Origin: Lantana camara
Taxonomy: Eukaryota > Streptophyta > Magnoliopsida > Lamiales > Verbenaceae
Length of the DNA stretch: 64,000 nucleotides
Assembly: GCA_037501455.1 (NCBI GenBank)
Contig: CM074856.1
Span: 90,284,001-90,348,000, forward strand
Reading direction: 5' to 3'
Shown here in pieces: positions 26,401 through 60,819 of this stretch. The translations under genes and the position numbers were made by a program. The notes under the pieces are model-generated. The model had not been told where the DNA came from and made no database searches. It worked only from the letters and a program-made list of their open reading frames with translations. Within the stretch, counting starts at the first letter, position 1; each line of letters starts with the position of its first letter.

Positions 26401-27076
26401 CGGATGGCCACGCCGCCAACGCCATTTGAAACGCCGGGAACTCCTTCATCTGGGTAAGGGGCGCGTGTCACCGGAATGTCGCCGGAAACCGCCGCGAAGG
26501 GGCGGTGAAGTGGCGGTTCTCCGTTCCGCCGTCGCTGTTGTGCCGTAGCGCCACCACCGCTGACTTTTAGCCTCCGATTCTTGTACCATCGTGACGGGCT
26601 CGTGGAGCTGATAAATTTCCATTATTCACACTTCGAATTCCGTCGAGAAACGAGCGAGAACGGGCTTGTGTGTGTAATTACACCTTGACTGCATGAATAG
26701 TGTCAGGGGAACGATGAACGCTGGAGGAAGAAGTTGGATTGAAATGGCACGGATTACGAGGATTCGGGGTATTATATCTCGGGTCCTCGTACACGAAAAC
26801 GGTCGGAAGAACGGGCTAACGAAGTCAGAATGGGGCAAACTTAGAGTCTACGGACTCGTTTCGATGCCCCGAACGTAAAGCAGGGGTCAAAAAGGTCGAA
26901 CTCTCGACCGAACGAGAAATGACCGAAAAACCCCTTAAAAGAGAAAATTACAAACAAGCCCCTAAACTCTTAAAGAGGTCAAAATAGGGCCACACAAAGC
27001 ACAAAATCACATAATTAATCACATAAAAAGGTTGGAACGTGGCGTACCTTATACGTCGAACAAGCGGGGTGTCACA
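23427..27076 (-). repeat. 5' LTR of element D
   Basis: 3650 bp, TG...CA ends, followed by GATCT (27077-27081). It retains the block deleted from the 3' LTR, including a G/C-rich region with GTCCCGAG and GGCGAGTACGGG motifs shared with the C and I LTRs. On minus there is a donor-like AAG/GTGAGG with GT at 24925-24926. The GC-rich core 25660-26560 is unconserved as protein. Confidence 0.9.
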
Positions 27077-27081
27077 GATCT

Positions 27082-27448: not shown

Positions 27449-30400
27449 TGTGACACCCTAAACAGAGGATGCCACATCCCCCGCACTAAGACCCAGACCC
27501 GGTCACGAAATGGAAAGTCCATGCCCGAATCCGAATCATAGCGAACGGGAGACCAACTCACACACTAGGCTAGGCGGATCTAACTTGACAAACTCAGAGT
27601 GCGGAAACAATTAAAACCAACAACAATAGATAGTGGAAGCATATAAAACAAAACATGCAAAGCAGGTGACGGGTTCAACTAGCATAGTTACCTAATCCCG
27701 AATTTCGACATACATAATCCAACATAATAAACAACATAAATATCATCAATATCTAGTAACAACCAAATACTTGTTTACTAACCCCATACGGGTTGAAGTC
27801 TAAATAGAACATAAACATAATTTGCAAATGTGAAACATAAATACATAAAATAAGTAGAGTATGCGACAAATGCATCATAACACCTACTAGACTGACAAGT
27901 GTGACTCAGAAGACTCACTTCCGCCTAGCTCAAGCCAAAAGAACCTGCAACTAAAAGATAAAATGAGGTGTCAGTCAACTGACTGAGTGAGGGGGCTAAC
28001 GCACACCCACAATATATATATAGAGCACAACACATATCATAAGGGTGGACTCATGAACCGGGATTAGGGTTTTGCACGCCAAAACAGTTGAAATACCCAA
28101 AATAGTATAAGTTTGGAAAACCATTTAGAGAAGCCTATCCCGTTTCACAAATCCCATACATTCATAACATATACCCGGCGAGTACGGGCTTCCAACCTTT
28201 AATCCTCATATCTGAACAGAACATAAAGCAGAATTAATCCATCCTCTACTCCAATGGTGGAAGAGCCACGCGTTGACCCTAACCATCAATAACATACATA
28301 CACACCCTCAAGGGGTAGCGAACCCACAAGAGTCCTCTCCGGCTATACACCGAAGGCTCAAGATATCACGTCTCCCTCATCGCCCTAAGGTCGCGCAATG
28401 ATATCTCAAATGGAACTACGCACAGGTATATCCCCGACGGCCCTAACCGTCCCGAGGGCTCCTTACCCATAGCTCCTCGGATCCACAAACATACATACAT
28501 ACAAATACCAATATTTCATGGTAACTTGCGACAGAATCATAATATATCAGAGTTTTCCAAAATAGCTTACATATGCCTTAATACTTAATTTTTCTTCAAA
28601 ACCAAGAATGGTCCACAAGGTCATAATCATATCATATCCAACACATATTTAATCTTACATAGTATATAACCGCATGCAAGGATTGAAATCATCATATTAA
28701 GGCCATAGGACGCTTAACTATACAAAATCCTAAACCTCACCTTATGCAAGTAGATCCTGAGAGTGTGAAGGGCCAAACACTCTAAACCTCGGGCCCACCG
28801 GCACCACCAAACTCTGTGATAAGACATACAAAAGCCCAGACTTAGACTCTATATGAACCAAACAAGACGCACGGCGTTGCTCAACATGATCGTGGTTATG
28901 CATAAGTGTTCATGTTGTGCTTGGATGAGGTGTCGTGGTCATTCAAGGTATATCAATGCTCAACAAGGTCATATTTACAAGCAACCATCATGCAATTCCA
29001 TATCCAAAGATGCAAGATCAATTTGGGAAGTCAATGTATTCACAAAATGCATATTAAATCATCCAATGTCACAGGGTTCAATTATAATGTTAGAATTAAG
29101 CATCAAGTTCATGACGAGTTGTAAAGTGCATAAGTAAGAGCAACTTGATCATATAAACATACAAAGTTGTTGTACGTAGATAGCATGCTTGATATAAATA
29201 AAGAGTGTATTTAATTCACTTAAGATCATACTTTACAACTTCACAACATGTTTGGTACACAAGCTCAAGTGACATTCATAGTTTCGTAAATATTACACTT
29301 ACATCCCCTAAGTTATTTATAAAAGTTTAGAATTATTACACATACATCCCCTTAATTGATTACTAAGCATAATTGTTCGTTTAAAGTGTTTATACAATTA
29401 TTCAACTAGGAATTAATTACTTACAAACATGACAATTATCAATTTATCGTAATTCAGAATACACCATTTCCGAGTAGTAAGAGTAAGACAAGATATTACA
29501 ATTCTAACTCCTATTATGCATCAAGTCTTAAGTTGTTCAAGCATCTTTCATGTATCTCAATTTTATATTTGAAACACAATTTAAAACAAACATAACATTG
29601 AGAACGTCTCAAATCCATATAAAGAAATCACAACATGTTCGTTCTTCTAAAATATCATTCAAGTTCATTTAGTCACATAAGAGATTAGTTTCTAAATATT
29701 ACACTAACACCCCTTCGTACTTAACAAATAGCGTAAATTCATCACATCGGATTCAAATTGTAAATCGAAACATTCATGCATATCACAATCCATTCAATAC
29801 ATGTTTTCGTATATGATTGGAATACATCTCGATCAACAAACCAACAATAACCAATTTATTTGCACTTAAAACAATTAATTCAAATAATCACAATTACGTA
29901 AAATAATTCGTAATAAATAGATCGAGTGTCCAATTAACGAACGGAAAGCGACGTGGGACTCACCGCATCGAGACCGATATTTTGTCCGAAAGTCGCCGGA
30001 GTGCAGCCACCGGAGCCGCCGGAAAGTCGCCGGGCCGCCGTCGAAAGTCGTCGGAAAAATCCCGAAAAATCAGTCCTGAATGAAGCCTTCGTGCCCGTTC
30101 CGAATCCTTGATCAATTTCTGGAAATTCCAAGCCGATTGTCCTAGATCTGGAATCTAAGAACATGAAAACCCTAAATCTTCAAACTCAAATTACTTCCAA
30201 ACCGGTGAACCAAAATGCGATCCGTAAAAGGCATTGTCTTACCCGTGACGAGCTCTTCGAAAGCCCTAAGGTAGCTCGCCGGAAAAATCCTCGGAGCTAG
30301 CGCCGCCGTTGCACCGCCACTATGCCGCCGCGATCCACCACCAAACCACCGAATCTGGAGTTGCGTGATCACAGGCCACTAGTTCTCGTCGTTCCGAACA

Positions 30401-31564
30401 ACTTTCGTGAAGAGCCCGAGACCAAAAGATGGCCGGAAAAGGCCCCCGTTAACCGCAGAAGTTTCTGCCGCCGCCCACTTCGCCGGAACCACCACCTACG
30501 GCCAAGATCTGGTGAAATTGATGCCGGAAATGAACTCAGGGGGTCGAAAACTATTGGAAACCATCAAGCCCCGTCGAAAACCACCGCCGGAAGGCGGCGA
30601 AACCCGCTGCTACAGTAACTCGCGCCGCCGCCGCGAGCTTTGGCTAGCGCGTGCGGTGCCGTCGCTGCTCCGATGGCCGCTCCGCCGATGTCAAACGAAG
30701 CGCCTGGAAGTCTAGTTTCTGGGCATGGGGCGCGTGCATCAAGAAGATGGCCGGAAACCGCCGCGAAGGCCGGCGAAGTGGCGGCGGTCTGACAGCTCCG
30801 TCGCCGCTACTGAAATCCGGCTATAACTCCACCACCATTTGTCGTTAGGCAGTGAAATTGTTACTCTTGCATCGGTCTCGCCGAGATAATCGAAATGGAC
30901 TATTCGTTTGTTGAATTCTGTCGAGAAACGATCGAGTTATGGGCTCGTAACCGAAGCCGCGCATAGTGACCTACGGGAGAGAGAGTGGGAGAAGAGAGAG
31001 AGAGAGAAAGGAGATTTGGGAGAAATGTGTCTTGTGCACAAGCTATATACAACCGGGTATCCTTATCGCGTAGCAAAGGGTAATATCGCGTACAAATAAT
31101 CGTAAATAAAATTGGTAAAGTTACGAATAAACATTCAAGCTCCGAATTAATTTTACAAATTAAAATGAAAGAGAGAGATTTACCAATTAGAGTTTAATTC
31201 AATTTAATTTTAGAAACCTTTCGTACAATTTAATGACACTTCGTAAACGCATGATTGACAATTAATCTCAAGGAATTCAAGTAAACCAAAATTAAACAAG
31301 TTAAGTAACATGATGGATTTAAAATCAACTTGACAATTATTTTATGGAATAAATTTGAATTAAATCAAATTACACAGTTAGGGTTAAATATGCGCGTAAT
31401 TAATCAAGTTGACAATTAATCTTAGAATAATTCGAATGATCACATATTAAATTGGATTTACATTTAATCACATAATTCAAGAACTCTTAAATTAAACACA
31501 CACAAGTGTAGAGACTTACTTGTTGATATCGTCAGGACGCCCTTCGAGAATACGGGGCGTCACA
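27449..31564 (-). repeat. 5' LTR of element C
   Basis: 4116 bp, one of the longest LTRs here, from TGTGACACCC to ...GGGGCGTCACA. Its right 2.4 kb equals 13852-16243. It includes the empty target site of B (AAACA, 29155-29159), a donor-like site on minus (GT at 28739-28740), a GC-rich core (about 29940-30860) and a GA-rich run (30975-31015). It is followed by TCCTT (31565-31569), the candidate duplication whose partner lies outside the window. Confidence 0.88.
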
Positions 31565-31833
31565 TCCTTCCTATTCGGATCGTGGTCGCTATTGGTGGAC
31601 TAATTCTCTAGAGGGCTACTATCTTGAAGTCTTGAAAGATTCGAAGGAGCTTTTGGGATCAAGCCGCGTGAAGAGCGTTCTTGGGCGGCTAGAATGTGTC
31701 ATGAAACCTACTATCTAAGTGAGTTTCTAGATCTCTATGAATTTACGAGTATAGGAATTGCAAGATTCAGCCGCCAGAATTTGGGAAAAAAATTTTAAAT
31801 TTCCGTTACGTTTCTGTTTCGTTTTTCCTAACA
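31565..31833 (+). repeat. Copia LTR remnant E, 3' end (+)
   Basis: Aligns with the last part of the A LTR from about 2950 onward (TTGGTGGACTA..., GGGATCAAGC..., AAATTTCCG...) and ends TTTTTCCTAACA. No PBS follows, so it is a solo or 3' LTR. C interrupts it on the left. It is much more diverged from A than B is. Confidence 0.75.
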
Positions 31834-37531: not shown

Positions 37532-40166
37532 TGTAACGCCCCATTTTTCATTTATATATTATGTTACATTATATTAAATTTTATAACATTATATGTATTA
37601 TGTTTTCATAAACTTATATGAAATTAATGTTAATGTGAAATTGATATGAATTAATTGATAATGTGATTAATTGCTCATTTATGACTTTAATTGTTCTTTA
37701 TCTAAATATGAGGACTTAATTGCATAAATCCTTTGGGGTGACTTGATCATATTCCATGAGACAATACTTGATTGCATACACTCATATATTAGAAGGACTT
37801 ATTTGCAAAGATTGATGACTCATGCATATATTTGCAAGACTTTGGATATATCACTTTATCTCTTCCATTTCATTCCATTTTATTCCAAGAACAAAATCAC
37901 ACACACACCCACACACTAAAAACCGACATTTACACCAAGAAGAAGAAGGAAAGATTTCTTCATAATTCAAGCTAGAGTTGAAGAATTGAGAAGCTAGGAT
38001 CATCAACATCGTCATATCTCCATTTCATCCATTTTCTTGGATTCAAGGTAGAACTTGGGGATTTTGTGAAATTCTTGAATTTGTGATTAAGGAGGGTTTA
38101 GGGATTTGATGATGAATTCATGCATGTTGGGAGCTAGATGCATGCTTAGGAATGAAAAGGAATGGAAATTGCATGAATATATTGAATTTCATGGAAGTTG
38201 GAAGCATGTTCATATATGGGGTTTTCATAGTGAATTCTTGAGACTTTGATGTATATTTCATGGTTAGTTTGATGAATAAATGAAGTATAATGTGTATTGG
38301 ATGTGTTAAATTGATTGTTATGGATTGAAGTTGGCTTTGGTTGTGGTTTTGTGGTGTTTTGGCTCGAAACTACCCTGTTTTCCCCTGTTTTGTTGCCGCT
38401 GCGTAACGGGTCGCGACCGTGACCGAAAATAGGCCAAAATTGGTCGCGCCCCCGACCCCATTTTAGCCAAGTTTCGAGTTTTGAAAAAATTGGAGAAAAT
38501 TCGGCCAAAAATACTTGGTCGCGGCCGCGACCATTTTGTGAAGGTTTTTGGTCGCGCCTGCGACCACCCTCCAGAAATTGCATTTTGTCCAACTTCAAAC
38601 CAACTCCATTTTTACCTCGGTTTGACTTAGAAAACGTGCCATATAGAGTTGGAAAGGTCTATGTGTGTACTTTCATTCCCAACAAGCAAAACTCAATTCC
38701 CACTTCTAGAATTGAAGATATTACAGTTTTCCCACAACATGTGCATTTTCCCAAAATTGTCAATTTTGCCAAACTTCACCAAAACCTTTCATATTGCATT
38801 CTTTTCACTTCTATGGCTCCCGTACGTGACCTATATGAGTTATAAACTTGGTTTAGTGATAATTATTCTAATAATTAACATTGCTTGATTGCTATTGCGT
38901 GACATATTGATTAGGACATTGTCGTGCGTCTTAAGTGGTTCATTTGAGTCGTGTCTCACGAACCCTTATCCTTATTGCACAGATTTCCTTCCCGTTGACG
39001 AGGAGCACGCATCATAATTATATCCTTGTCTTGGTCGTCACAGGTGAGGTTATTCCTATTTGTAAAAGAACCCTACAACCCTATGTGATTTTGGACCAAA
39101 ACAAATAATTTTATCTATAGTTTTTCGAAAATTGAATTGTTACTTCATTGACCTATTGATATTGTACCGAGTAATTGTTATTGATATTGAATTGATTTAT
39201 TGATTGTTTTGGCGAGTAAAGCGTGTTCACTTTGGGCCCGAGGGTAGTGTATTGAGTAATCCGGGGAGGCATCAGGCCGACGGTGATCTCTTGGACTATC
39301 CTCACTTATTGTTGGGGTCACCCCTGAATCCACCAGGAGGTTTGGTGGAGGAAGGAGCCCGCCTGGCGTAGGGACTCATGAACCCTATGCCCAGATTGAT
39401 TGGGTGGTGGGGCCTTGCAATCCCACCATCACCCGGAGGAAGAAGGATGGATTGAATGAAATTGTCTAATTGCGCACCGAACTGATTGCTTGATCACCCA
39501 ATTGATAAAATTGAATTATTGTACACTGTCGGAGAAAGTTTGGAGATTTGCCCTCACTCATCGGGCCACTGATCGATGGTATCGAATTGTATTGAAATAA
39601 TTGAATTGAAAATGGAATTGTTGTAATCTCGGGTGAGCACTATATTATTTTAGAATTAATATCGTTTTATGAAAAATCTTACCTGAGATTACAATTTGCA
39701 TGGTACTTGCGCTTTTAAATTATATCCCCTCACTCAGTCTGTGGTAGACTGACACCTCACCATTTTCAGGTCGTGCAGATCGACTGCTAGGCGGGGTTTG
39801 AGTCCAGTTTACCGCTTTTGGGAGTCTAGCATTGATCTTTCATATTGATGCATGTTTTGATCACTTATGAATTTTGGGAATATGATTTGGTACCTGTATG
39901 TATATGATATAGTGGTATACTTGCAAGTGGAATACTTGATAATGTAAATGTTGTATTGGAACGTGAAGCTACGTAATGTATAGTTCTATGCTTCCGCTTT
40001 TACTTTGAATTGTTGTATTATTTGAGGGTATCCCGCCTAGCTAGTGTCGTGTTTTTTAATTGTCACCGGTTCGCCATGAGTCCGGTTCATATATGGACTA
40101 CCCATTTCATGTGTGAGCTAGACTTATGGTGCGGGGGTGTGGCACCTCAGCGTTCCGGGTGCTACA
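37532..40166 (+). repeat. LTR1 of K
   Basis: 2635 bp, TGTAACGCCCC to ...CGGGTGCTACA. Landmarks: four GGTCGCG..CGCGACC palindromes (38409-38565), donor-like CACAG/GTGAGG (GT at 39044-39045), a GC-rich block (39226-39450). LTR2 and LTR3 start TGGTAACG, so LTR1 probably lost one G. Confidence 0.93.
38409..38565. repeat. Four GC-rich 16-bp palindromes in LTR1
   Basis: GGTCGCGACCGTGACC, GGTCGCGCCCCCGACC, GGTCGCGGCCGCGACC and GGTCGCGCCTGCGACC, in AT-rich surroundings. LTR2 (44154-44310) has better-preserved versions; LTR3 (49839-49983) has lost part of the fourth. They give a repeated GRGRDQ pattern in an antisense 150-codon frame, which I regard as incidental. Confidence 0.8.
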
Positions 40167-40173
40167 TCTTAGG

Positions 40174-40186
40174 TGGTATCAGAGCC
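40174..40186 (+). other. Primer-binding site of K body 1
   Basis: TGGTATCAGAGCC, seven bases after LTR1, complementary to initiator tRNA-Met. Confidence 0.93.
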
Positions 40187-41772
40187 CGGTTGCAAAACCG
40201 AGGTTCTAGTGTCGTGTCGTGTCAAGTCTAGGTCGTACGGCATAGGAATTAATTGTTAATTTGAGGGTTCTGCATCTTGTTTGAAATTATTTGATTACTT
40301 GGATCTTTCAAAATTCTTGAGTTATTGAATAATTTGAGCATTGTGTTGAATTATGTTGTTAATTGCCAATTAATTGATCTTGAATTATTTGAAATTATTT
40401 GCCCAACGTGTTTTATTTTAAACATTGATGAATTACCTGTTGCATTTTATATTAAGTTCTTGACATCAATTATGTGACAATCTTGTGACATGAGCATGTC
40501 TTACTCACATGCATTTATTTTCAAAGGAAGTTGTGATTATAGGCTATAAAGATCATGTCAACCCACGGCCAATTTTTAAGACAACTTCAACCTATCGCAA
40601 GATCCCTTCTCTAGCTTTAAAGTTGCGAAGAAGGCACCGGAGGTTAAGAGACATTCGGGAAATTGGTAGTTCTATGGCAAGACTATAGGTTGGGAATTTA
40701 ACTTTGGTATGAAGGATAAATCATACGGGAAGAAGTGGTGCGTAGGAGAAAACGGTATGAATGTGTGATGTTTATAACTTACAAGGTAAACACACGCTTC
40801 TATACTGTGAGCAAAGTTGATCAGCCGGATTTAGGAGTTTCGGTTAACTCAAGGAAAAGAGTGAAGACCTTGAAAGTATTAAGGATCTAATGTCCGAATT
40901 AGAATAAAGAAGAAGAAATGATGAATTTAGAAACTTCGGAATTTGGAAAAGAAAGTGGGTGGATGGGAGGAAGTTAAAAGCACTAATGGTTTCCAGGTCA
41001 TGGAAAATTCAGATGTTAAAGGTTTTATATTCAGACGGGTTGGAGTTCTTTTTCTAGGTTCAAGCCGAATTGTTGTGTTGAGAGCGCGAAGTGGGAGATA
41101 TGGACCAACAAACGGAAACGGTAAAGAAAAACAAAGATTTACTTGGAGAAATTAGCTGCTCAAGTGTAATTCTCATAAGGAATAAACCGAGGACTTCAAC
41201 TGAAGTGATGACTAGGTGAAGATTTAAGACAACATCGAAAGAAGGCAAGGTATCAATTTCATGGAGTTGGAAGCATTTGAGTTCAAGAATCACAATTTCG
41301 GATTTTAAAGTCATGCAAGTCGATACAAGGAAACTTTGATAAAGAAGATATGTAGAGTAAAGGTTTGAGCGACACATAAGAATCAATACTTCAGAAGGAA
41401 TAATGAGGGGAAGGAATAAAGTTCAAGAAATTTCAACTCTCAAGCGAGGGGAATGTACAAGTTGATGTCCGAGAATTCTAAAAATTTAGAAGACTGTGGG
41501 TAACAAGAAATGGCTAACAAATGCAAGGCAAGCTTGTAATTCAACAAACATGGAACGAGTGCCAAGTTAAAGGATGTAACTACGGTGACAGGTTCAATGC
41601 ATCCATAAGCACATGCATCATACGCTACTTTAAATTGTTTAAATTTCTTTAATTATATGTGCTTTCCTAATTGAACTTAATCGTTTCAATGTATTGAATT
41701 TTAGTATTTACTAGTATGTTACGTACATTGGCATATTAATTCAAGATGCATATTCAGTGACTTGATTTCAGG
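40187..41772 (+). other. Non-coding leader of K body 1
   Basis: About 1.6 kb without a recognisable protein. It begins with the conserved block TAGGTCGTACGGCATAGGAAT (40229-40249). It ends TTGATTTCAG/G at 41771/41772, an acceptor-like site one base before the gag ATG. Frames of up to 108 codons recur in body 2 only because the copies are young. Confidence 0.7.
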
Positions 41773-42834
41773 ATGCCCCGAGGTCGTCCTCGTCATGAGC
41801 ACTCTCCAGGTCATAGGAGACATCGTCGTGACCGATCTCCTAGGGCTCCTCCACACCCGTCCCCTCCGGCTCAACCTCAAGATTTTCTTGATTCTATGGT
41901 TCGACTTGTAGATCAGAGAATAAGAAATTATAATCCTCCAGTACCATCGGTGGCACCACAACCAACACAGATTTTTGCCATACTTAGAGAGTTCCAAAAT
42001 CAGCAGCCTCCAAAGTTTTACAAACGAAATGATATTCAGGCAGAGCAGTGGCTTAAGGAGGTTGAGAGGATTTGGGAGTTGATTCCGTGTGAATCAGAAG
42101 AGAAAGCCCGGTACACTATCTCACTAATACAGGGCGAAGCTTATTCTTGGTGGGAAAGTACCAAGATTATCTTAGATGCCACAGGAGGGGTTGTGACATG
42201 GCAGGTGTTTGTAAGGGAATTCAAGAACAAGTTCATTACTCCAGCTTCTCGCACTCGGAGACTTAAGGAATTCACTGAACTCAAGCAAGGAGAAAGATCA
42301 GTTGCCGAGTATATTGCTGAGTTTGAGAGATTGTCTCAGTATGCACCCAACATTGCAAGTGATGACTTCCACAAAGCCATGCAATTTGTGCAAGGATTGA
42401 GGCCGGACATACAAGCAGCAATTGAAGCTGTCAATACTAGTACTTGGAGGAAGGCCACCTCAAAAGCTCTTAAGGTTGAGGACTCGGTGAATGCAAGGAG
42501 GCCTATTGCTTACCCCGTACAGGCTGCAAGTTCAGAATTAGAAAAGGACCTTAACAATGGAAAGGGGTCTATCCAATATCATGCTCCCTTACATCAAGAG
42601 GGGTCTCATAAGAAGAAGAAGAATCGAGCCATTGGAACAGGTTTGAGAGTTTCACGTACCTCGTCCTCAATATTACTTTCGGGGAAGCCTCTATGCACCT
42701 ATTGTGGACGCGATACACATAATTACGACAATTGCAGATGGCACTTGGGCTTATGCTTGTGGTGTGGGAGTGATGAGCATCAAGTGGATATGTGCCCGAA
42801 GCGACGAAAAATACCTACTGGAAATAAACGGTGA
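41773..42834 (+). CDS. gag: Gag protein of K (intact, gag-only element)
   Basis: 353 codons, the only intact retroelement protein in the window. It would assemble cytoplasmic virus-like particles and bind element RNA. The basic N-terminus (MPRGRPRHEH...) is followed by a proline-rich linker, a Retrotrans_gag-type domain from about residue 70 to 235 (REFQNQQPPKFY, EAYSWWES, REFKNKFITP, RLKEFTELKQG, QFVQGLRPDIQ), a basic stretch (KKKK near 283) and two C-terminal zinc knuckles, CTYCGRDTHNYDNC and CLWCGSDEHQVDMC, both CX2CX4HX4C. The Gag of J has nearly the same core, so co-assembly is plausible. No pol frame follows. The ATG is chosen because the homologous start in J encodes a similar MPPRRHHDRSPG. 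Confidence 0.9.
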   Translation: MPRGRPRHEHSPGHRRHRRDRSPRAPPHPSPPAQPQDFLDSMVRLVDQRIRNYNPPVPSVAPQPTQIFAILREFQNQQPPKFYKRNDIQAEQWLKEVERIWELIPCESEEKARYTISLIQGEAYSWWESTKIILDATGGVVTWQVFVREFKNKFITPASRTRRLKEFTELKQGERSVAEYIAEFERLSQYAPNIASDDFHKAMQFVQGLRPDIQAAIEAVNTSTWRKATSKALKVEDSVNARRPIAYPVQAASSELEKDLNNGKGSIQYHAPLHQEGSHKKKKNRAIGTGLRVSRTSSSILLSGKPLCTYCGRDTHNYDNCRWHLGLCLWCGSDEHQVDMCPKRRKIPTGNKR

Positions 42835-43021
42835 ACGGTACACCTAACCATGCATATCACGTGCATCATAGATCTTAATGTTGTTGTATTTAATTTCTTG
42901 TTAGTTGGAAATTGGTTGTTTATGAGTGATGTTTATGCGATTAATATGATTCTACTTGCCTATGTGACATTTATATGAGTGTTTTACAATTTGTTCCCTT
43001 GAATTGCTTTCGTGTGTGTTT
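42835..43021 (+). other. K body 1: spacer between gag and the hairpin array
   Basis: AT-rich, non-coding. The 12-mer GGTGAACGGTAC (42830-42841) spanning the gag stop is conserved in D and, with one change, in C. Confidence 0.6.
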
Positions 43022-43208
43022 GAGAGACGGGGTTCTCTCATTTCTTGTTGAGAGACGGGGTTCTCTCATTTCTTGTTGAAAGACAGGGTTCTTTCATTTC
43101 GTGTTTGAGAGACGGGGTTCTCTCATTTCTTGTTGAGAGATGGGATTCTCTCATTTCTTGTTGAAAGACCGGGTTCTTTCATTTCGTGTTTAAGAGACGG
43201 GGTTCTCT
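43022..43208 (+). repeat. Short-hairpin array of K body 1 (7 units)
   Basis: Seven units of about 26-29 bp: a 6-bp stem GAGAGA...TCTCTC around CGGGGT, then ATTTCTTGTT or ATTTCGTGTTT. Units 3 and 6 read GAAAGA...TCTTTC, a double change that keeps pairing; unit 5 has loop TGGGAT. Units 1-2-3 and 4-5-6 form a roughly 85-bp higher-order repeat. The array lies between gag and the PPT and would be in the 3' UTR of genomic RNA. Confidence 0.92.
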
Positions 43209-43241
43209 TTTGGCTTGTGCATCATTTTAAAACTCGACAGT

Positions 43242-43276
43242 GGACCTGGGGACCAGGTCCTTTTACGGGGGGAGAA
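43242..43276 (+). other. PPT-proximal hairpin and PPT of K body 1
   Basis: GGACCTGGGGACCAGGTCC (43242-43260) is a stem-loop, followed by TTTTACGGGGGGAGAA. Body 2 has TTTTAAGGGGGG, so body 1 carries an A-to-C change in the PPT. Confidence 0.85.
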
Positions 43277-45911
43277 TGGTAACGCCCCATTTTTCATTTA
43301 TACATTATGTTACATTATATTAAATTTTATAACATTATATGTATTATGTTTTCATAAACTTATATGAAATTAATGTTAATGTGAAATTGATATGAATTAA
43401 TTGATAATGTGATTAATTGCTCATTTATGACTTTAATTGTTCTTTATCTAAATATGAGGACTTAATTGCATAAATCCTTTGGAGTGACTTGATCATATTC
43501 CATGAGACAATACTTGATTGCATACACTCATATATTAGAAGGACTTATTTTTAAAGATTGATGACTCATGCATATATTTGCAAGACTTTGGATATATCAC
43601 TTTATCTCTTCCATTTCATTCCATTTTATTCCAAGAGCAAAATCAAACACGTACCCACACACTAAAAACCGACATTTACACTAAGAAGAAGAAGGAAAGA
43701 TTTCTTCATAATTCAAGCTAGAGTTGAAGAATTGAGAAGCTAGGATCATCAACATCATCATATCTCCATTTCATCCATTTTCTTGGATTCAAGGTAGAAC
43801 TTGGGGATTTTGTGAAATTCTTGAATTTGTGACTAAGGAGGGTTTAGGGATTTGATGATGAATTCATGCATGTTGGAGCTAAATGCATGCTTAGGAATGA
43901 AAAGGAATGGAAATTGCATGAATATATTGAATTTCATGGAAGTTGGAAGCATGTTCATATATGGGGTTTTCATAGTGAATTCTTGAGACTTTGATGTATA
44001 TTTCATGGTTAGTTTGATGAATAAATGAAGTATAATGTGTATTGGATGTGTTAAATTGATTGTTATGGATTGAACTTGGCTTTGGTTGTGGTTTTGTGGT
44101 GTTTTGGCTCGAAACTGCCCTGTTTTCCCCTGTTTTGCTGCTGCTGCGTAACGGGTCGCGACCGCGACCGAAAATAGGCCAAAATTGGTCGCGCCCGCGA
44201 CCCCATTTTAGCCAAGTTTCTAGTTTTGAAAAAATTGGAGAAAATTCGGCCAAAAATACTTGGTCGCGGCCGCGACCATTTTCTGAAGGTTTTTGGTCGC
44301 GCCCGCGACCACCCTCCAGAAACTGCATTTTGTCCAACTTCAAACCAACTCCATTTTTACCTCGGTTTGACTTAGAAAACGTGCCATATAGCGTTGGAAA
44401 GTTCTATGTGTCTACTTTCATTCCCAACAAGCAAAACTCAATTCCCCCTTCTAGAATTTAAGATATTACAGTTTTCCCACAACATGTGCATTTTCCCAAA
44501 ATTGTCAATTTTGCCAAACTTCACCAAAACCTTTCATATTGCATTCTTTTCACTTCTTTGGCTCCCGTACATGACCTATATGAGTTATAAACTTGGTTTA
44601 GTGATAATTATTCTCATAATTAACATTTCTTGATTGTTATTGCGTGACATATTGATTAGGACATTGTCGTGCGTCTTAAGTGGTTCATTTGAGTCGTGTC
44701 TCATGAACCCTTATCCTTATTGCACAGATTTCCTTCCCGTTGACGAGGAGCACGCATCATAATTATATCCTTGTCTTGGTCGTCACAGGTGAGGTTATTC
44801 CTATTTGTAAAAGAACCCTACAACCCTATGTGATTTTGGACCAAAACAAATAATTATATCTATAGTTTTCCGAAAATTGAATTGTTACTTCATTGACCGA
44901 TTGATATTGTACCGAGTAATTGTTATTGATATTGAATTGATTTATTGATTGTTTTGGCGAGTAAACCGTGTTCACTTTGGGCCTGAGGGTAGTGTATTGA
45001 GTAATCCGGGGAGGCATCGGGCTGACGGCGATCTCTTGCACTATCCTCACTTATTGTTGGGGTCACCCCTGAATCCACCAGGAGGTTTGGTGGAGGAAGG
45101 AGCCCGCCGGGCGTAGGGACTCATGAACCCTATGCCCAGATTGATTGGGTGGTGGGGCCTTGCAATCCCACCATCACCCGGAGAAAGAAGGATGGATTGA
45201 TTGAAATTGTCTAATTGCGCACCGAACTGATTGCTTGATCACCCAATTGATAAAATTGAATTATTGTACACTGTAGGAGAAAGGTTGGAGATTTGCCCTC
45301 ACTCCCCGGGCCACTGATCGATGGTATCGAATTGTATTGAAATAATTGAATTGAAAATGGAATTGTTGTAATCTCGGGGGACCACTATATTATTTTAGAA
45401 TTAATATCGTTTTATGAAAAATCTTACCTGAGATTACAATTTGCATGGTACTTGCGCTTTTAAATTATAACCCCTCACTCAGTCTGTGGTAAACTGACAC
45501 CTCACCATTTTCAGGTCGTGCAGATCGAGTGCTAGGCGGGGTTTGAGTCCAGTTTACCGCTTTTGGGAGTCTAGCATTGATCTTTCATATTGATGCATGT
45601 TTTGATCACTTATGAATTTTGGGAATATGATTTGGTACCTGTATGTATATGATATAGTGGTATACTTGCAAGTGGAATACTTGATAATGTAAATGTTATA
45701 TTGGAACGTGAAACTACGTAATGTATAGTTCTATGCTTCCGCTTTTACTTTGAATTGTTGTATTATTTGAGGGTATCCCGCCTAGCTAGTGTCGTGTTTT
45801 TTAATTGTCACCCGTTCGCTATGAGTCCGGTTCATATATGGACTACCCATTTCATGTGTGAGCTAGACTTATGGTGCGGGGGTGTGGCACCTCAGCGTTC
45901 CGGGTGCTACA
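43277..45911 (+). repeat. LTR2 of K (shared by both bodies)
   Basis: 2635 bp, TGGTAACGCCCC to ...GGGTGCTACA. It serves as 3' LTR of body 1 and 5' LTR of body 2. It shares several 5'-half variants with LTR3 and some 3'-end variants with LTR1, as expected of a crossover product. Donor-like GT at 44789-44790. Confidence 0.92.
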
Positions 45912-45918
45912 TCTTAGG

Positions 45919-45931
45919 TGGTATTAGAGCC
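45919..45931 (+). other. Primer-binding site of K body 2, one mismatch
   Basis: TGGTATTAGAGCC: a C-to-T change relative to body 1, consistent with methylcytosine deamination. Confidence 0.88.
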
Positions 45932-47516
45932 CGGTTGCAAAACCGAGGTTCTAGTGTCGTGTCGTGTCAAGTCTAGGTCGTACGGCATAGGAATTAATTG
46001 TTAATTTGAGGGTTCTGCATCTTGTTTGAAATTATTTGATTACTTGGATCTTTCGAAATTCTTGAGTTATTGAATAATTTGAGCATTGTGTTGAATTATG
46101 TTGTTAATTGCCAATTAATTGATCTTGAATTATTTGAAATTATTTGCCCAACGTGTTTTATTTTAAACATTGATGAATTACCTGTTCCATTTTATATTAA
46201 GTTCTTGACATCAATTATGTGACAATCTTGTGACATGAGCATGTCTTACTCACATGCATTTATTTTCAAAGGAAGTTGTGATTATAGGCTATAAAGATCA
46301 TGTCAACCCACGGCCAATTTTTAAGACAACTTCAACCTATCGCAAGATCCCTTCTCTAGCTTTAAAGTTGCAAAGAAGGCACCGGAGGTTAAGAGACATT
46401 CGGGAAATTGATAGTTCTATGGCAAGACTATAGGTTGGGAATTTAACTTTGGTATGAAGGATAAATCATACGGGAAGAAGTGGTCGTAGGAGAAAACGGT
46501 ATGAATGTGTGATGTTTATAACTTACAAGGTAAACACACGCTTCTATACTGTATGCAAAGTTGATCAGCCGGATTTAGGAGTTTCGGTTAACTCAAGGAA
46601 AAGAGTGAAGACCTTGAAAGTATTAAGGATCTAATGTCCGAATTACAATAAAGAAGAAGAAATGATGAATTTAGAAACTTCGGAATTTGGAAAAGAAAGT
46701 GGGTGGATGGGAGGAAGTTAAAAGCACTAATGGTTTCCAGGTCATGGAAAATTCAGATGTTAAAGGTTTTATATTCAGACGGGTTGGAGTTCTTTTTCTA
46801 GGTTCAAGCCGAATTGTTGTGTTGAGAGCGCGAAGTGGGAGATATGGACCAACAAACGGAAACGGTAAAGAAAAACAAAGATTTACTTGGTGAAATTAGG
46901 TGCTCAAGTGTAATTCTCATAAGGAATAAACCGAGGACTTCAACTGAAGTGATGACTAGGTGAAGATTTAAGACAACATCGAAGGAAGGCAAGGTATCAA
47001 TTTAATGGAGTTGGAAGCATTTGAGTTCAAGAATCACAATTTCGAATTTTAAAGTCATGCAAGTTGATACAAGGAAACTTTGATAAAGAAGATATGTAGA
47101 GTAAAGGTTTGAGCGACACACAAGAATCAATACTTCAGAAGGAATAACGAGGGGAAGGAATAAAGTTCAAGAAATTTCAACTCTCAAGCGAGGGGAATGT
47201 ACAAGTTGATGTCCGAGAATTCTAAAAATTTAGAAGACTGTGGGTAATAAGAAGTGGCTAACAAATGCAAGGCGAGCTTGTAATTCAACAAACATGGAAC
47301 GAGTGCCAAGTTAAAGGATGTAACTACGGTGACAGGTTCAATGCATCCATAAGCACATGCATCATACGCTACTTTAAATTGTTTAAATTTCTTTAATTAT
47401 ATGTGCTTTCCTAATTGAACTTAATCGTTTCAATGTATTGAATTTTAGTACTTACTAGTGTGATACGTGCATTGGCATATTAATTCAACAAGCATATTCA
47501 GTGACTTGATTTCAGG
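45932..47516 (+). other. Non-coding leader of K body 2
   Basis: Near-identical to 40187-41772, including the conserved block at 45974-45994 and the acceptor-like TTTCAG/G before the gag start. No gene seen. Confidence 0.7.
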
Positions 47517-48578
47517 ATGCCCCGAGGTCGTCCTCGTCATGAGCACTCTCCAGGTCATAGGAGACATCGTCGTGACCGATCTCCTAGGGCTCCTCCACAC
47601 CCGTCCCCTCCGGCTCAACCTTAAGATTTTCTTGATTCTATGGTTCGACTTGTTGATCAGAGAATAAGAAATTATAATCCTCCAGCACCACCGGTGCCAC
47701 CACAACCAACACAGATTTCTGCCTTACTTAGAGAGTTCCAAAATCAGCAGCCTCCAAAGTTTTACAAACGAAATGATATTCAGGCAGAGCAGTGGCTTAA
47801 GGAGGTTGAGAGGATTTGGGAGTTGATTCCGTGTGAATCAGAAGAGAAAGCCCGGTGCACTATCTCACTAATACAGGGCGAAGCTTATTCTTGGTGGGAA
47901 AGTACCAAGATTATCTTAGATGCCACAGGAGGGGTTGTGACATGGCAGGTGTTTGTAAGGGAATTCAAGAACAAGTTCATTACTCCAGCTTCTCGCACTC
48001 GGAGACTTAAGGAATTCACTGAACTCAAGCAAGGAGAAAGATCAGTTGCCGAGTATATAGCTGAGTTTGAGAGATTGTCTCAGTATGCACCCAACATTGC
48101 AAGTGATGACTTCCACAAAGCCATGCAATTTGTGCAAGGATTGAGGCCGGACATACAAGCAGCAATTGAAGCTGTCAATACTAGTACTTGGAGGAAGGCC
48201 ACCTCAAAAGCTCTTAAGGTTGAGGACTCGGTGAATGCAAGGAGGCCTATTGCTTACCCCGTACAGGCTGCAAGTTCAGAATTAGAACAGGACCTTAACA
48301 ATTGAAAGGGGTCTATCTAATATCATGCTCCCTTACATCAAGAGGGGTCTCATAAGAAGAAGAAGAATCGAGCCATTGGAACAGGTTTGAGAGTTTCACG
48401 TACCTCGTCCTCAATATTACTTTCGGGGAAGCCTCTATACACCTATTGTGGACGCGATACACATAATTACGATAATTGCAGATGGCGCTTGGGCTTATGC
48501 TTGTGGTGTGGGAGTGATGAGCATCAAGTGGATATGTGCCCGAAGCGACGAAAAATACCTACTGGAAATAAACGGTGA
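47517..48578 (+). pseudogene. gag: Gag pseudogene of K body 2 (three premature stops)
   Basis: Colinear with the intact copy at 41773-42834 and of the same length, but with in-frame stops at codon 36 (47622-47624, CAA to TAA), codon 263 (48303-48305, GGA to TGA) and codon 268 (48318-48320, CAA to TAA). Two of the three are C-to-T changes, typical of methylated repeats. The core domain (47640-48302) and both zinc-knuckle sequences (48435-48578) are otherwise preserved, so inactivation is recent. No product longer than about 220 residues could be made, and that only from an internal ATG. Confidence 0.92.
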
Positions 48579-48765
48579 ACGGTACACCTAACCATGCATA
48601 TCACGTGCATCATAGATCTTAATGTTGTTGTATTTAATTTCTTGTTAGTTGGAAATTGGTTGTTTATGAGTGATGTTTATGCGATTAATATGATTCTACT
48701 TGCCTATGTGACATTTATATGAGTGTTTTACAATTTGTTCCCTTGAATTGCTTTCGTGTGTGTTT

Positions 48766-48896
48766 GAGAGACGGGGTTCTCTCATTTCTTGTTGAGAGAC
48801 GGGGTTCTCTCATTTCTTGTTGAAAGACAGGGTTCTTTCATTTCGTGTTTGAGAGACGGGGTTCTCTCATTTCTTGTTGAGAGACGGGGTTCTCTT
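48766..48896 (+). repeat. Short-hairpin array of K body 2 (5 units)
   Basis: Same unit as in body 1, but five copies: GAGAGA, GAGAGA, GAAAGA, GAGAGA, GAGAGA stems, each with its matching right arm (the last is one base short). Two units fewer than body 1. Confidence 0.92.
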
Positions 48897-48928
48897 TTGG
48901 CTTGTGCATCATTTTAAAACTCGACAGT

Positions 48929-48963
48929 GGACCTGGGGACCAGGTCCTTTTAAGGGGGGAGAA
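48929..48963 (+). other. PPT-proximal hairpin and PPT of K body 2
   Basis: GGACCTGGGGACCAGGTCC (48929-48947), then TTTTAAGGGGGGAGAA before LTR3. Confidence 0.87.
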
Positions 48964-51584
48964 TGGTAACGCCCCATTTTTCATTTATATATTATGTTAC
49001 ATTATATTAAATTTTATAACATTATATGTATTATGTTTTCATAAACTTATATGAAATTAATGTTAATGTGAAATTGATATGAATTAATTGATAATGTGAT
49101 TAATTGCTCATTTATGACTTTAATTATTCTTTATCTAAATATGAGGACTTAATTGCATAAATCCTTTGGAGTGACTTGATCATATTCCATGAGACAATAC
49201 TTGATTGCATACACTCATATATTAGAAGGACTTATTTGCAAAGATTGATGACTCATGCATATATTTGCAAGACTTTGGATATATCACTTTATCTCTTCCA
49301 TTTCATTCCATTTTATTCCAAGAGCAAAATCAAACACACACCCACACACTAAAAACCGACATTTACACTAAGAAGAAGGAAAGATTTCTTCATAATTCAA
49401 GCTAGAGTTGAAGAATTGAGAAGCTAGGATCATCAACATCATCATATCTCAATTTCATCCATTTTCTTGGATTCAAGGTAGAACTTGGGGATTTTGTGAA
49501 ATTCTTGAATTTGTGATTAAGGAGGGTTTAGGGATTTGATGATAAATTCATGCATGTTGGGAGCTAAATGCATGCTTAGGAATGAAAAGCAATGGAAATT
49601 GCAAGAATATATTGAATTTCATGGAAGTTGGAAGCATGTTCATATATGGGGTTTTCATAGTGAATTCTTGAGACTTTGATGTATATTTCATGGTTAGTTT
49701 GGTGAATAAAAGAAGTATAATGTATATTGGATGTGTTAAATTGATTGTTATGGATTGAACTTGGCTTTGGTTGTGGTTTTGTGGTGTTTTGGCTCGAAAC
49801 TGCCCTGTTTTCCCCTGTTTTGCTGCTGCTGCGTAACGGGTCGCCACTGCGACCGAAAATAGGCCAAAATTGGTCGCGCCCGCGACCCCATTTTAGCCAA
49901 GTTTTGAGTTTTGAAAAAATTGGAGAAAATTCGGCCAAAAATACTTGGTCGCGGCCGCGACCATTTTGTGAAGGAGCGCGACCACCCTCCAGAAACTGCA
50001 TTTTGTCCAACTTCAAACCAACGCCATTTTCACCTCGGTTTGAATTAGAAAACGTGCCATATAGCGTTGGAAAGGTATATGTGTCTACTTTCATTCCCAA
50101 CAAGAAAAACTCAATTCCCACTTCTAGAATTTAAGATAATACAGTTTTCCCACAACATGTGCATTTTCCCAAAATTGTCAATTTTGCCAAACTTCACCAA
50201 AACCTTTCATATTGCATTCTTTTCACTTCTTTGGCTCCCGTACGTGACCTATATGAGTTATAAACTTGGTTTAGTGATAATTATTCTCATAATTAACATT
50301 GCTTGATTGTTATTGCGTGACATATTGATTAGGACATTGCCTTGCGTCTTAAGTGGTTCATTTGAGTCGTGTCTCACAAACCCTTATCCTTATTGCACAG
50401 ATTTCCTTCCCGTTGACAAGGAGCACACATCATAATTATATCCTTGTCTTGGTCATCACAGGTGAGGTTATTCCTATTTGTAAAAGAACCCTACAACCCT
50501 ATGTGATTTTGGACCAAAACAAATAATTATATCTATAGTTTTCCGAAAATTGAATTGTTACTTCATTGACCGATTGATATTGTACCGAGTAATTGTTATT
50601 GATATTGAATTGATTTATTGATTGTTTTGGCGAGTAAAGCGTGTTCACTTTGAGCCCGAGGGTAGTGTATTGAGTAATCCGGGGAGGCATCGGGCCGACG
50701 GTGATCTCTTGCACTATCCTCACTTATTGTTGGGGTCACCCCTGAATCCACCAGGAGGTTTGGTGGAGGAAGGAGCCCACCGGGCGTAGGGACTCATGAA
50801 CCTTATGCCCAGATTGATTGGGTGGTGGGGCCTTGCAATCCCACCATCACCCGGAGGAAGAAGGATGGATTGATTGAAATTGTCTAATTGCGCACCGAAC
50901 TGATTGCTTGATCACCCAATTGATAAAATTGAATTATTGTACACTGTCGGAGAAAGGTTGGAGATTTGCCCTCACTCGCCGGGCCACTGATCGATGGTAT
51001 CGAATTGTATTGAAATAATTGAATTGAAAATGGAATTGTTGTAATCTCGGGTGAGAACTATATTATTTTAGAATTAATATCGTTTTATGAAAAATCTTAC
51101 CTGAGATTACAATTTGCATGGTACTTGCGCTTTTAAATTATAACCCCTCACTCAGTCTGTGGTAGACTGACACCTCACCATTTTCAGGTCGTGCAGATCG
51201 ACTGCTAGGCGGGGTTTGAGTCCAGTTTACCACTTTTGGGAGTCTAGCATTGATCTTTCATATTGATGCATGTTTTGATCACTTATGAATTTTGGGAATA
51301 TGATTTGGTACCTGTATGTATATGATATAGTGGTATACTTGCAAGTGGAATACTTGATAATGTAAATGTTGTATTGGAACGTGAAACTACGTAATGTACA
51401 GTTCTATGCTTCCGCTTTTACTTTGAATTGTTGTATTATTTGAGGGTATCCCGCCTAGCTAGTGTCGTGTTTTTTAATTGTCACCCGTTTGCCATGAGTC
51501 CGGTTCATATATGGACTACCCATTTCATGTGTGAGCTAGACTTATGGTGCCGGGGTGTGGCACCTCAGCGTTCCGGGTGCTACA
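48964..51584 (+). repeat. LTR3 of K
   Basis: 2621 bp, TGGTAACGCCCC to ...GGGTGCTACA, followed by CTTCA (51585-51589). Slightly shorter than LTR1 and LTR2, partly from a deletion in the fourth palindrome near 49975. Confidence 0.93.
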
Positions 51585-52559
51585 CTTCAGATTTATACTT
51601 CATCAAGTATATATAACCATACCGATTGAAGTCATCAGTAAAGGTTATGAAATACTGATGATTGTTTCTTGTGCTTACACTAAGCGGTCCACAAACATCA
51701 GTATGGATCAAATCCAAAACCTTAGTGACACGTTCCATAGTTCCTTTAAAAGGAACTTTGGACATCTTTTCTTTGAGATAGGATTCGCAAGAAGTTAACT
51801 CCTTAAGATCATTTTCAGAGAATGATCCTAAAGTGTTTATCTTGCTAATTCTGTTCTTGGAAATGTGTCCTAATCTAGCGTGCCATAAGGGAGCTGAAAC
51901 TTTGTCATCTCTCTTACGCTTCGTTTCTCGTTGTATATTCATGATATTGATATTCTGAGTTAGATAAAGTCCATTACTTAGAGTACCGATGTGAACGGAA
52001 GAGTTGTTCCGTTTGATAAAGTATTTACCATTCTTAATATAAGTTTCATAACCTTCACAATCTAAAATTGGAATAGAAATTATATTACGAATAATGCTTG
52101 GTGCATAAAGGACTTTATTTAAGACTAACTCAAAACTACCTAAATCTAATCTAATTGTGCCTAAAGCTCGAGCTTCAACGTTTGAGCCATCGCCGATCTT
52201 CAAGACACATTCTCCTTCTTTGAGTTGTTGGACTTCACTTAGCATCTGTACATCATTGCAGTTATGAGTTCCACAACCGGTATCAAGTACCCAAGAACTA
52301 GAATTAATAGAAAGATTTACTTCAACAAGAAAGATACCTTTCTTTAGAGTAGCCTTGTACTCTGGGCAGTTTCTCCTCCAATGTCCCGCTTTGCCACAAT
52401 GGAAGCAAACATCCTCTTTCTAATCACGCTTCTTCTTTTGGGCCTTCCCCGTCGAAACGCCACCAGTGGGCCTAAGGGGTTTCTTCTTCTTCTTTTGGAC
52501 TTTCTTGCCCTTACCTTTAGAAGGCCCAGAAGAGGAAGATGGAGCATTCACCATCAAAA
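51585..52559 (-). pseudogene. Copia protease, pre-integrase and integrase N-part of H
   Basis: Minus strand. A zinc knuckle CFHCGKAGHWRRNC lies near 52375-52420, then the protease region WVLDTGCGTHNCND with its DTG active site near 52290, then a 221-codon frame (52245-51580). That frame holds the GAG-pre-integrase motif (LWHARLGHISKNRISKI) and the start of the integrase core with its first Asp (LIHTDVCGPL, FTDDFNRYGY). A stop lies between the zinc knuckle and the upstream basic linker, in a QKKKRD-stop context. K splits the integrase after MKYKSE. The coding continuation is at 37389-37531. Confidence 0.85.
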
Positions 52560-59379: not shown

Positions 59380-59414
59380 ACCTCTCCCCCTTAAGAGAAT
59401 CCGTCCTCGGATTC
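59380..59414 (-). other. PPT and PPT-proximal hairpin of J
   Basis: On minus, GAATCCG-AGGA-CGGATTC (59397-59414), then CTTAAGGGGGAGAGGT and the LTR. The stem begins within the stop codon of the pol frame, so only about 33 bp separate coding sequence from the LTR, and there is no hairpin array. Confidence 0.85.
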
Positions 59415-59712
59415 ATTTATCGACCGGAAACAATTCGGGATGAAATCTTTTCATCTTCTCCTCCGTCTCCCACGTAGCCTCTTCCGACTTATCATTTCTC
59501 CATAAAACTTTAACTAGTGGGATTTGCCGGTTTCTTAATTCTTGAAATTTTCGATCCAAAATTCTAACCGGTTTCTGCACGAAGGTAAGGTTAAGCTCAA
59601 GTTCCACTTCTTCAACGGTTAGGATCTCGGATTCATCCGGATAATATTTCCGAAGCTGAGAAACATGGAATACATTATGAATTCCTGTCAAACTCGGGGG
59701 TAGATCCAAACG
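59413..59712 (-). pseudogene. J integrase C-terminus with chromodomain-like tail
   Basis: A 98-codon frame reading MDLPPSLTGIHNVFHVSQLRKYYPDESE..., then a chromodomain-like end with PVRILDRKFQELRNRQIPLVKV and LWRNDKSEEATWETEEKMKR. In chromoviruses this tail directs integration to marked heterochromatin. It is separated from the integrase frame only by a stop (59713-59715) where related elements have Tyr. The pattern fits a Tekay/Del-type chromovirus; the clade is tentative. Confidence 0.85.
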
Positions 59713-60819
59713 CTAGGTTGTATCTCCAATTCTTTCCAGAATCTCATAAGGTCCCAAATATCGGGGATTTAACTTTCCTCCCCTACCAATTCGAGTGAAT
59801 CCTTTTCGAGGTGAAGCTTTCAGAAACACTCTATCCCCGACAGTAAACTCAAGATCCTTTCTCCGTTTATCTGCATAGCTTTTCTGTCGGTCTTGGGCTG
59901 CTTTCATCCGTTGTCTGATTATTTGGACCTTATCAATTGCTTCCTGCACGGCCTTAGAAGGTTTTTCTTTATTCTCCCCTCGTTTTACACCTTCTTGCTT
60001 CGTCCAATTCCATTCTTCTAAATCAAAGAACAACGGTGATCTGCATTTTCGTCCGTAGAGAGCTTCACATGGGGCCATTTCTATCGATGCTTGAAAACTG
60101 TTATTATAGGCGAACTCAATCAAAGGTAATTGCTCGTTCCACGAACTCGAAAAATCCAATGCACATGCTCTCAACATATCCTCCAAATATTTGATTAATC
60201 TCTCGGATTGCCCATCTATCTGAGGATGGAAAGCTGTGCTGAATTGAAGCCTTGTTCCCAGATTCCTTTGCAATTCTAGCCAAAACCTAGAAGTGAACCT
60301 CGAATCCCGATCTGATACAATGCTGACCGGTACACCATGAAGTCGCACAATTTCATCAACATATTTCTTAGCCAATTTCTTCACCTTATCCGTCATCCTA
60401 ATAGCCAGAAAATGCACCGATTTCGTTAATCGATCCACTATTACCCAAATTCCATCCAAACCACCTCTCACTCGTGGAAGACGCGTAACGAAATCCATCG
60501 CCACTTGCTGCCATTTCCATTCTGGGATAGGTAACGGTTGAAGTAACCCCGATGGTTTCTGATGTTCTACTTTCACAACTTGGCAAGTCAAACAATGCCT
60601 CACGAAATTGATCACATCCCGCTTAAGTCCATTCCACCAATAAAATTTCTTTAAATCCTTATACATCTTATTTCCCCCGGGATGTATGGAATACCCTGAT
60701 CGATGAGCTTCTTCCAACAACAACCGTTTCAATTCTTCCGGAACCACAACTCTGTTCTTGAACCTTAGAAGCCCGGTGTCATCAAACCCGAACGGACCCT
60801 CTGAATCATTTCTAGCTTT
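59713..60819 (-). pseudogene. J integrase
   Basis: The 344-codon frame (60747-59713) contains the HHCC zinc module (HRSGYSIHPGGNK ... CLTCQVVK) and a catalytic core with D in AMDFVTRLP, D in SDRDSRFTSRFW and E in DGQSERLIKYLED, so the DDE residues are present. It ends with the GKLNPRYLGPYEIL module. A short piece to 60819 joins it to the RNase H frame across a stop. The protein would insert element cDNA into chromatin. The domain is complete, but the polyprotein is interrupted on both sides. Confidence 0.9.

Follow-up and report, generated by a model that had tools for sequence, protein, structure and literature searches.

Covarying predicted stem-loop arrays and capsid-less Gag frames in Ty3/gypsy elements of Lantana camara

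Stem-loop signals are known from retroelements: retroviral packaging relies on a small number of distinct stem-loops located in the 5′ leader, among them SL2 and SL3 of human immunodeficiency virus type 1 (HIV-1), whose loops are of purines or rich in G. Laboratory MS2 tag arrays place near-identical protein-binding hairpins in a row in the 3′ untranslated region (UTR), and plants harbor TR-GAG elements, long terminal repeat (LTR) elements that encode gag only. According to excerpts of the respective papers, the packaging stem-loops of mouse mammary tumor virus offer unpaired purines, in a purine loop, to Gag or nucleocapsid (PMC8096270), and RNA packaging in Ty3 depends critically on the zinc finger and also requires UTR or POL sequences, although the exact packaging sequences are not precisely defined (PMC4974528). 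In the Tat/Ogre/Retand elements of plants, tandem arrays specific to each family follow the coding region and precede the 3′ LTR, and the function of the Retand-type 3′ repeats is recorded as unknown in the excerpted text (PMC11963269). Sireviruses, which belong to Ty1/copia, possess repeated short palindromes that keep their symmetry as the sequence varies, mostly with a CGG-CCG core, situated in the LTRs and before env and read as a DNA regulatory box, together with an inverted repeat at the polypurine tract; the excerpt contains no test of covariation (PMC2829016). For enod40 RNA, transposable-element tandem repeats have been linked to host-gene stem-loops, with one Ty1/copia case (PMC10578108, in excerpt). 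Here, we present the analysis of a 64,000-nt stretch of the Lantana camara genome (contig CM074856.1, positions 90,284,001 to 90,348,000, forward strand; hereafter the window, by whose positions all features are given), in which the LTR elements K, E1 and E2 carry rows of predicted hairpins in their 3′ part whose two arms tend to change together.

In K, seven hairpin units of ~28 bases occupy positions 43020–43208 (+) between gag and the polypurine tract, as the original prediction had it, each with a stem of 6–7 bp and a G-rich 6-nt loop, CGGGGT or a near variant. A second K array with five units is located at 48764–48896 (+). The arrays of E1 and E2, two diverged families, likewise lie upstream of the polypurine tract; they comprise ten units in E1 (16540–16871, −) and twelve by eye or eleven by the detector in E2 (21462–21840, −), in both cases arranged as two sub-arrays, one with 8-nt loops of the TGTTGGAT type followed by one with 6-nt loops of the CGGGGT type. 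A relaxed unit pattern matched 21 times in the window, compared with 0.16 matches expected from shuffles. Among the copies analyzed, all of which come from one genome, the number of detected units per array ranges from 3 to 12 and the distance from array to tract from 55 to 357 bases. Minimum-free-energy folding of the K array with its flank showed a modest gain over shuffles (z −2.1), and lower scores were obtained for E2 (z −5.0) and E1 (z −4.1), to which long-range pairs contribute in part. No match was found to the covariance models of Rfam 15, for three loci at E values up to 1 and for the window at gathering score. With retroviral packaging signals the arrays share a short stem carrying an unpaired loop that is G-rich or made of purines, as far as the predicted structure goes; however, they consist of 3–12 near-identical units in the 3′ part, and wherever gag was found they are placed 3′ of it and not in a 5′ leader. 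In position, they resemble the Tat/Ogre/Retand arrays, but the latter are presented as repeats in the main text of PMC11963269, which never uses the word 'hairpin', whereas the unit here is a covarying stem-loop; moreover, the array elements appear, judged by gag, to be related to chromoviruses and not to Tat. A longer stem, GATATC...CCCTTGAGT / ACTCAAGGG...GATATC, is predicted upstream of both the E1 and the E2 array (~16950–17030 and ~21915–21990, −), and a simple pattern matched it in 5 of 9 E-type loci.

K units 3 and 6 both carry GAAAGA/TCTTTC in place of GAGAGA/TCTCTC, as originally noted. The original prediction drew on both, but the K array exhibits a higher-order period of 85 bp with 96% matches, a block duplication by which the two units are most simply explained as one event; several independent events are therefore not evident from K alone. 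An additional two-arm change, AAGAGA/TCTCTT, is present in unit 7. The family called D in the original prediction corresponds to E2 on the minus strand, and its array contains both of the variants named there, GAGAAA/TTTCTC and GGGAGA/TCTCCC, in addition to GAAAGA/TCTTTC and AAGAGA/TCTCTT. Covariation, at first claimed for three stem positions, extends to all six in a pooled set of 136 arrays, whose 1,031 units comprise 106 arm types: pairing holds in 5,958 of the 6,186 stem cells, and every stem pair shows full compensated Watson-Crick changes, the third pair in 2 arrays only. Of the 25 types that carry a single change in each arm, 6 are compensated, whereas a share of 1/18 would be expected if the arms were independent (p 0.002); the six compensated types account for 237 copies and the other 19 for 25.

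These units are abundant. The pattern GARAGAYNGGRTTCTYTC had 29,223 exact matches in the 1.27-Gb genome, compared with 2 for the reversed control, and at its first 100 listed places the arms read GAGAGA/TCTCTC 83 times, GAAAGA/TCTTTC 17 times and mixed 0 times (fourth pair G-C, A-T and mixed, respectively). At first look, the DNA search yielded 2,551 K, 2,781 E1 and 3,951 E2 candidate arrays, 40 of each being scored, and 38 K-like, 22 E1-like and 20 E2-like further copies were fetched. A pattern-listed sample, comprising the first 100 places, all on contig C1, gave 54 distinct arrays with 269 units after 3 of 57 arrays had been dropped as identical in array sequence to another; it is conditioned on at least one unit per array matching the pattern. 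Two places are present both in this sample and among the K-like copies (L022/L108 and L036/L114), and the pooled counts include each once; the counts for the pattern-listed sample itself retain them.

Arms fit the partner within their own unit better than those of other units in the array. When the 3′ arms were swapped within arrays, for K, E1 and E2 restricted to arrays having distinct arms, none of 2,000 swaps reached the observed pairing in K (1,449 of 1,494 cells paired vs 1,377, standard deviation (sd) 4.6; 34 arrays), in E1 (1,217 of 1,290 vs 1,172, sd 3.0; 19 arrays) or in E2 (1,093 of 1,116 vs 1,036, sd 2.9; 17 arrays); in the 54 arrays of the pattern-listed sample, 1,543 of 1,614 cells were paired vs 1,490.6 (sd 4.0), which 0 of 5,000 swaps reached. 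The top covarying column pair in the K7 alignment, from which 1 of 19 rows had been removed as a duplicate, is a stem pair, and of the 10 stem pairs in which both columns vary, 6 fall in the top 1.4% of the background and 4 are unremarkable. In nine E-type arrays with orthologous units (77–95% identical), unit 5 displays A-T, G.T and G-C at one and the same pair, a series that looks like a path via the wobble pair, albeit unpolarised. In tree simulations, which treat units without exchange between them, the simulated pairing at the full rate was 0.76 vs 0.95 observed for the E-type and 0.80 vs 0.96 for K7. In the rate-matched simulation, two-arm Watson-Crick cells numbered 12 observed vs 3.8 simulated for the E-type (10 of 1,000 runs reach this) and 20 vs 1.9 for K7 (0 of 1,000), and unpaired cells numbered 37 vs 101.7 (0 of 1,000 as low) and 32 vs 80.8 (3 of 1,000 as low), respectively.

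The loops are conserved in a different manner from the stems, GG occupying the same position in 716 of the 777 units (278/288 in K, 235/259 in E1 and 203/230 in E2). Loop-to-LTR kissing, of GGGG with CCCC of the LTR start, and a shared quadruplex were set aside by reasoning, as the 8-nt loops have only GG. A further, terminal hairpin, with paired-arm variants, lies a short way 5′ of the polypurine tract, only a few bases from it. In K it reads GGACCTGG-GGA-CCAGGTCC (43242–43260, +), just 5′ of the tract (~43267–43277) and the start of the 3′ LTR, and the second K copy has an identical stem and loop (48929–48947, +). The E2 counterpart before the tract is AGGACCTG-AGGA-CAGGTCCT (21168–21187, −); E1 itself is without a clean terminal hairpin. 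The autonomous element A likewise carries one before its tract (GAATCCG-AGGA-CGGATTC, 59397–59414, −) and has no array there. An anchor, which itself requires GGA, was found in 91 of 142 loci, and in 75 of these 91 the stem is fully paired in one of five forms, namely GGACCTGG, GAATCCG, AGGACCTG, GAATCTGG and GGATCTGG, each with its complement; the remaining 16 were wrongly anchored or contain a mismatch or wobble. Among the 51 loci without an anchor, 42 are short E1-like or E2-like stretches that end before the polypurine tract. The loops are mostly GGA or AGGA, with AGA in L026 and GCA in L041.

The array elements occur in three coding states: with full gag (K), with a capsid-less frame that we call mini-Gag, and with none detectable (E1, E2). 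The description as gag-only thus holds for K, which has an intact gag of 353 amino acids (aa) and in which no pol was found, and fails for E1 and E2, in which tblastn detected no gag. K possesses LTRs, a polypurine tract and a gag with capsid and lacks pol, as TR-GAG elements do; E1, E2 and the mini-Gag elements, by contrast, lack a gag with capsid domain, so that many array elements differ from TR-GAG in encoding a capsid-less Gag, or none that was found. In 12 array loci, residues ~118–238 of the K gag, corresponding to the capsid region, are missing at one and the same place, and the N-terminal and knuckle parts are retained; two intact knuckles are present in 8 of these 12 loci and a single one in 4. 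None of the 4 mini-Gags scanned had a Pfam capsid hit, and a protein-database search with one mini-Gag found no relative. Nine of the 12 frames, open over 212–275 codons, had a mean non-synonymous rate (dN) of 0.223 and a synonymous rate (dS) of 0.679 (ratio 0.33; 36 pairs, not independent of each other), and the knuckle region had a dN of 0.143 and a dS of 1.083 (ratio 0.13) in the 20 of 36 pairs that were computable, the other 16 being excluded for a dS that could not be computed or did not exceed 0.02; these low ratios suggest that mini-Gag is under purifying selection. Capsid-less frames with one or two intact knuckles and low dN/dS are those of L006, L090, L100, L105, L124, L128, L130, L134 and L136. 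Of 18 places with ~1.3–1.5 kb of upstream sequence, all with an array by choice of sample, mini-Gag was found at 5, a gag with capsid at 1 and neither of the two at 12. At L145 (600–1218), the array is directly followed, in the 3′ direction, by truncated integrase and chromodomain sequence; of 40 loci scanned, this is the only one with hits to both domains. A role of L145 as an autonomous array-bearing element was set aside, as the domains lie 3′ of the array and the start is truncated, making a nested or recombinant copy likely.

The covarying stem, the constant G-rich loop, the several copies per element and the presence of a protein that kept its knuckles and lost its capsid lead us to propose that the arrays are predicted 3′ stem-loops of non-autonomous Ty3/gypsy elements, in which selected pairing would maintain a multivalent docking site for nucleocapsid acting in trans. 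The original idea of a multivalent RNA tag for Gag gains new, indirect support from the conserved loop, from the terminal hairpin near the tract and from the knuckle-bearing mini-Gag. Judged from sequence, we give this proposal an even chance of being correct. The hairpins would form in the element RNA inside the cell, and the zinc knuckles of the nucleocapsid would bind their G-rich loops; many units would raise avidity and let the non-autonomous RNAs compete for Gag, and Gag-bound array RNAs might then be packaged or brought to the copying machinery. Gag would be supplied largely in trans, probably borrowed, and mini-Gag could act as an RNA-binding adaptor in the Gag-recruitment step. More doubtful, but possible, is a two-part recruitment, in which a portable row of G-loop hairpins, common to dissimilar families, would work together with a capsid-less zinc-knuckle adaptor Gag. 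If true, such a two-part system would allow parasites of parasites to take over, through the number of binding sites alone, the machinery by which autonomous elements are copied.

Several observations weigh against selected pairing or against a docking site for Gag. Since 12 of the 18 array places were without tblastn-detected gag, the partner protein has to be supplied from another source. Because units are duplicated in blocks, there are fewer events than copies. Some units are unpaired throughout a lineage: E1 unit 1 is fixed as GAGAGA/TCCCTC (23 copies in 23 arrays), an inner T-T is fixed in E2 unit 1 (20 copies in 21 arrays), E1 unit 7 has G-G unless it is bulged, and one group of the pattern-listed sample has A-G or A-A at the innermost position. 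Minimum-energy folds join some arms of neighboring units, as seen in K. In the full-rate simulation, two-arm pairs were not in excess (10 observed vs 11.1 simulated for the E-type, 6 vs 8.5 for K7); because the stems change less than the rest, this simulation fails to separate them from the null. In the rate-matched simulation, two-arm broken cells were not below expectation (5 vs 2.5 for the E-type). Finally, units with one substitution in the pattern-listed sample made G.U more often than A.C (23 vs 8, p 0.011 assuming independence of units), but the private stem mutations lean the same way (14 to 6) and the types shared by at least 3 arrays are nearly even (4 to 3), leaving this as weak evidence for a strand-specific preference. 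The pattern GAGAGACGGGGTTYTYTY, on the G.U side, had 22,018 genome matches, the unchanged unit included.

The concordance of the arms could arise without any selection, through tandem-repeat drift or through copying of one arm onto the other by a template switch in the palindrome, and the copying of units in 85-bp blocks, by which concordant arms move together, is in line with such an origin. Arm-onto-arm copying predicts frequent two-armed private mutations, yet none of the 46 private stem changes in core and outer pairs of 23 E1-like and 21 E2-like copies was two-armed, which argues against arm-copying in old copies and in favor of selection. Per site, private changes occurred in E1 at 0.167 in core stems vs 0.152 in spacers and in E2 at somewhat lower rates in the stems (0.06 and 0.12) than in spacers (0.147). 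Changes shared within lineages mostly leave a pair, as in the A-T, G.T and G-C states of E-type unit 5; they affect 0 of 126 sites in the core 3′ arm and are mostly A-T to G.T or the reverse in the 5′ arm. More likely, the arms agree owing to events during the active phase of a lineage. As simulation without selection also yields many more unpaired cells, we consider a neutral origin very improbable, and of the two origins that the original prediction set against repeat drift, selected pairing has withstood the arm swaps, the rate-matched simulations and the comparison of many copies, in which one-arm changes might have accumulated at the neutral rate. It is likely that pairing, and not sequence, is maintained by selection acting on the element RNA. 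A reading at the DNA level takes the units as palindromic sites for a dimeric protein, as proposed for the Sirevirus palindromes, which, in the excerpted text, are also repeated and different between elements (PMC2829016). A DNA site would be expected to keep its sequence, however, whereas here seven different stems stay paired despite sequence change; the loop is asymmetric and G-rich, and the arrays lie outside the promoter region of the LTR, without being CGG-CCG palindromes in the LTR of a Ty1/copia element. This makes the DNA-site explanation distinctly improbable in our view.

If the hairpins are read as RNA, a host protein could bind them, with the arrays serving as a constitutive-transport-like, stability or localization element that would promote nuclear export of unspliced element RNA or protect it from degradation, and in which Gag is uninvolved. 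Some simple retroviruses carry such elements at this position, after their last gene and ahead of the polypurine tract, and the presence of arrays in elements without tblastn-detected gag fits this. Binding by a host protein leaves unexplained why a capsid-less protein with conserved knuckles is found alongside the arrays and why the loops of both array and terminal hairpin are G-rich, and we regard it as unlikely. Alternatively, array and terminal hairpin could together shape the region of the polypurine tract and thereby aid RNase H or reverse transcriptase in making the plus-strand primer. The position of the terminal hairpin a few bases from the tract in the 75 anchored loci, the autonomous A included, agrees with such a function, and a like role has been proposed for the inverted repeat at the Ty1/copia tract (PMC2829016, in excerpt). 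A priming aid would need neither many copies nor a free distance, but the arrays have both, and as an explanation of the arrays it appears improbable; for the terminal hairpin alone, a role in priming may hold.

Compared with the known systems, then, the proposed docking site would extend an established principle in a form that we did not find described, a 3′ array common to several families and accompanied by a capsid-less Gag. The likeness to MS2 tag arrays lies in the row of near-identical hairpins; the arrays here are natural and apparently selected, and their binding protein is putative. The purine loops of the mouse mammary tumor virus offer a similar parallel, the binding of Gag or nucleocapsid to the present loops being conjectural (PMC8096270, in excerpt). 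A full-text search of the literature, mostly without subscription journals and demanding every term, revealed no paper on zinc-knuckle Gag and capsid in plants and none on compensatory stem-loops in Ty3-gypsy tandem repeats; among the titles and abstract openings listed by broader searches, none concerned this subject. At least one 3′ repeat of plant Ty3/gypsy elements would be a row of hairpins whose pairing is under selection, and its unit pattern recurs tens of thousands of times in a single genome. The arrays bear on how pol-less elements recruit a helper, since in many copies the adjacent Gag kept only its RNA-binding end, and they raise the concrete questions of whether the knuckle protein binds the array and whether the number of units sets the strength of this interaction.

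The elements themselves are arranged as follows. K (37533–51587, +) is an LTR-internal-LTR-internal-LTR tandem with LTRs at 37533–40170, 43279–45915 (common to both internal regions) and 48966–51587, with approximate boundaries; its two units are 98% identical, a pattern as after unequal recombination. The K gag (41773–42834, +; open) contains Retrotrans_gag and Ty3_capsid domains and two CX2CX4HX4C knuckles, and the second copy (47517–48575, +) is 96.6% identical by tblastn, its frame not being open along the full length. Four relatives of the K gag were found in the protein set, two at 57–62% identity and two celery proteins at 34%. Viral contigs searched with two unit patterns and the K gag and plasmids searched with the 3′ region gave no match. 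The LTR pairs of E1 (13852–16250 and 29155–31571, −) and E2 (18568–21154 and 24498–27081, −) enclose the arrays described above. Element A (59416–63567, −, the element running from about 63.9 kb down) retains pieces of a chromovirus-type gag-protease, reverse transcriptase/RNase H, integrase and chromodomain. Its SH3_Tf2-1 domain and chromodomain are a chromovirus mark, and its gag is 60% identical to that of K; as K is without pol, the lineage of K rests on gag alone. A piece at 18169–18564, beside E2 within E1, is 97.5% identical to the interior of E2, whereas the E1 and E2 arrays are only 73–77% identical to each other. Inside the LTR of A (57981–58195, −), six short palindromes of the ACACGGCCGTGT type recur with an 82-bp period, and their variants differ on both sides, possibly representing a second case of kept symmetry, here in an LTR.
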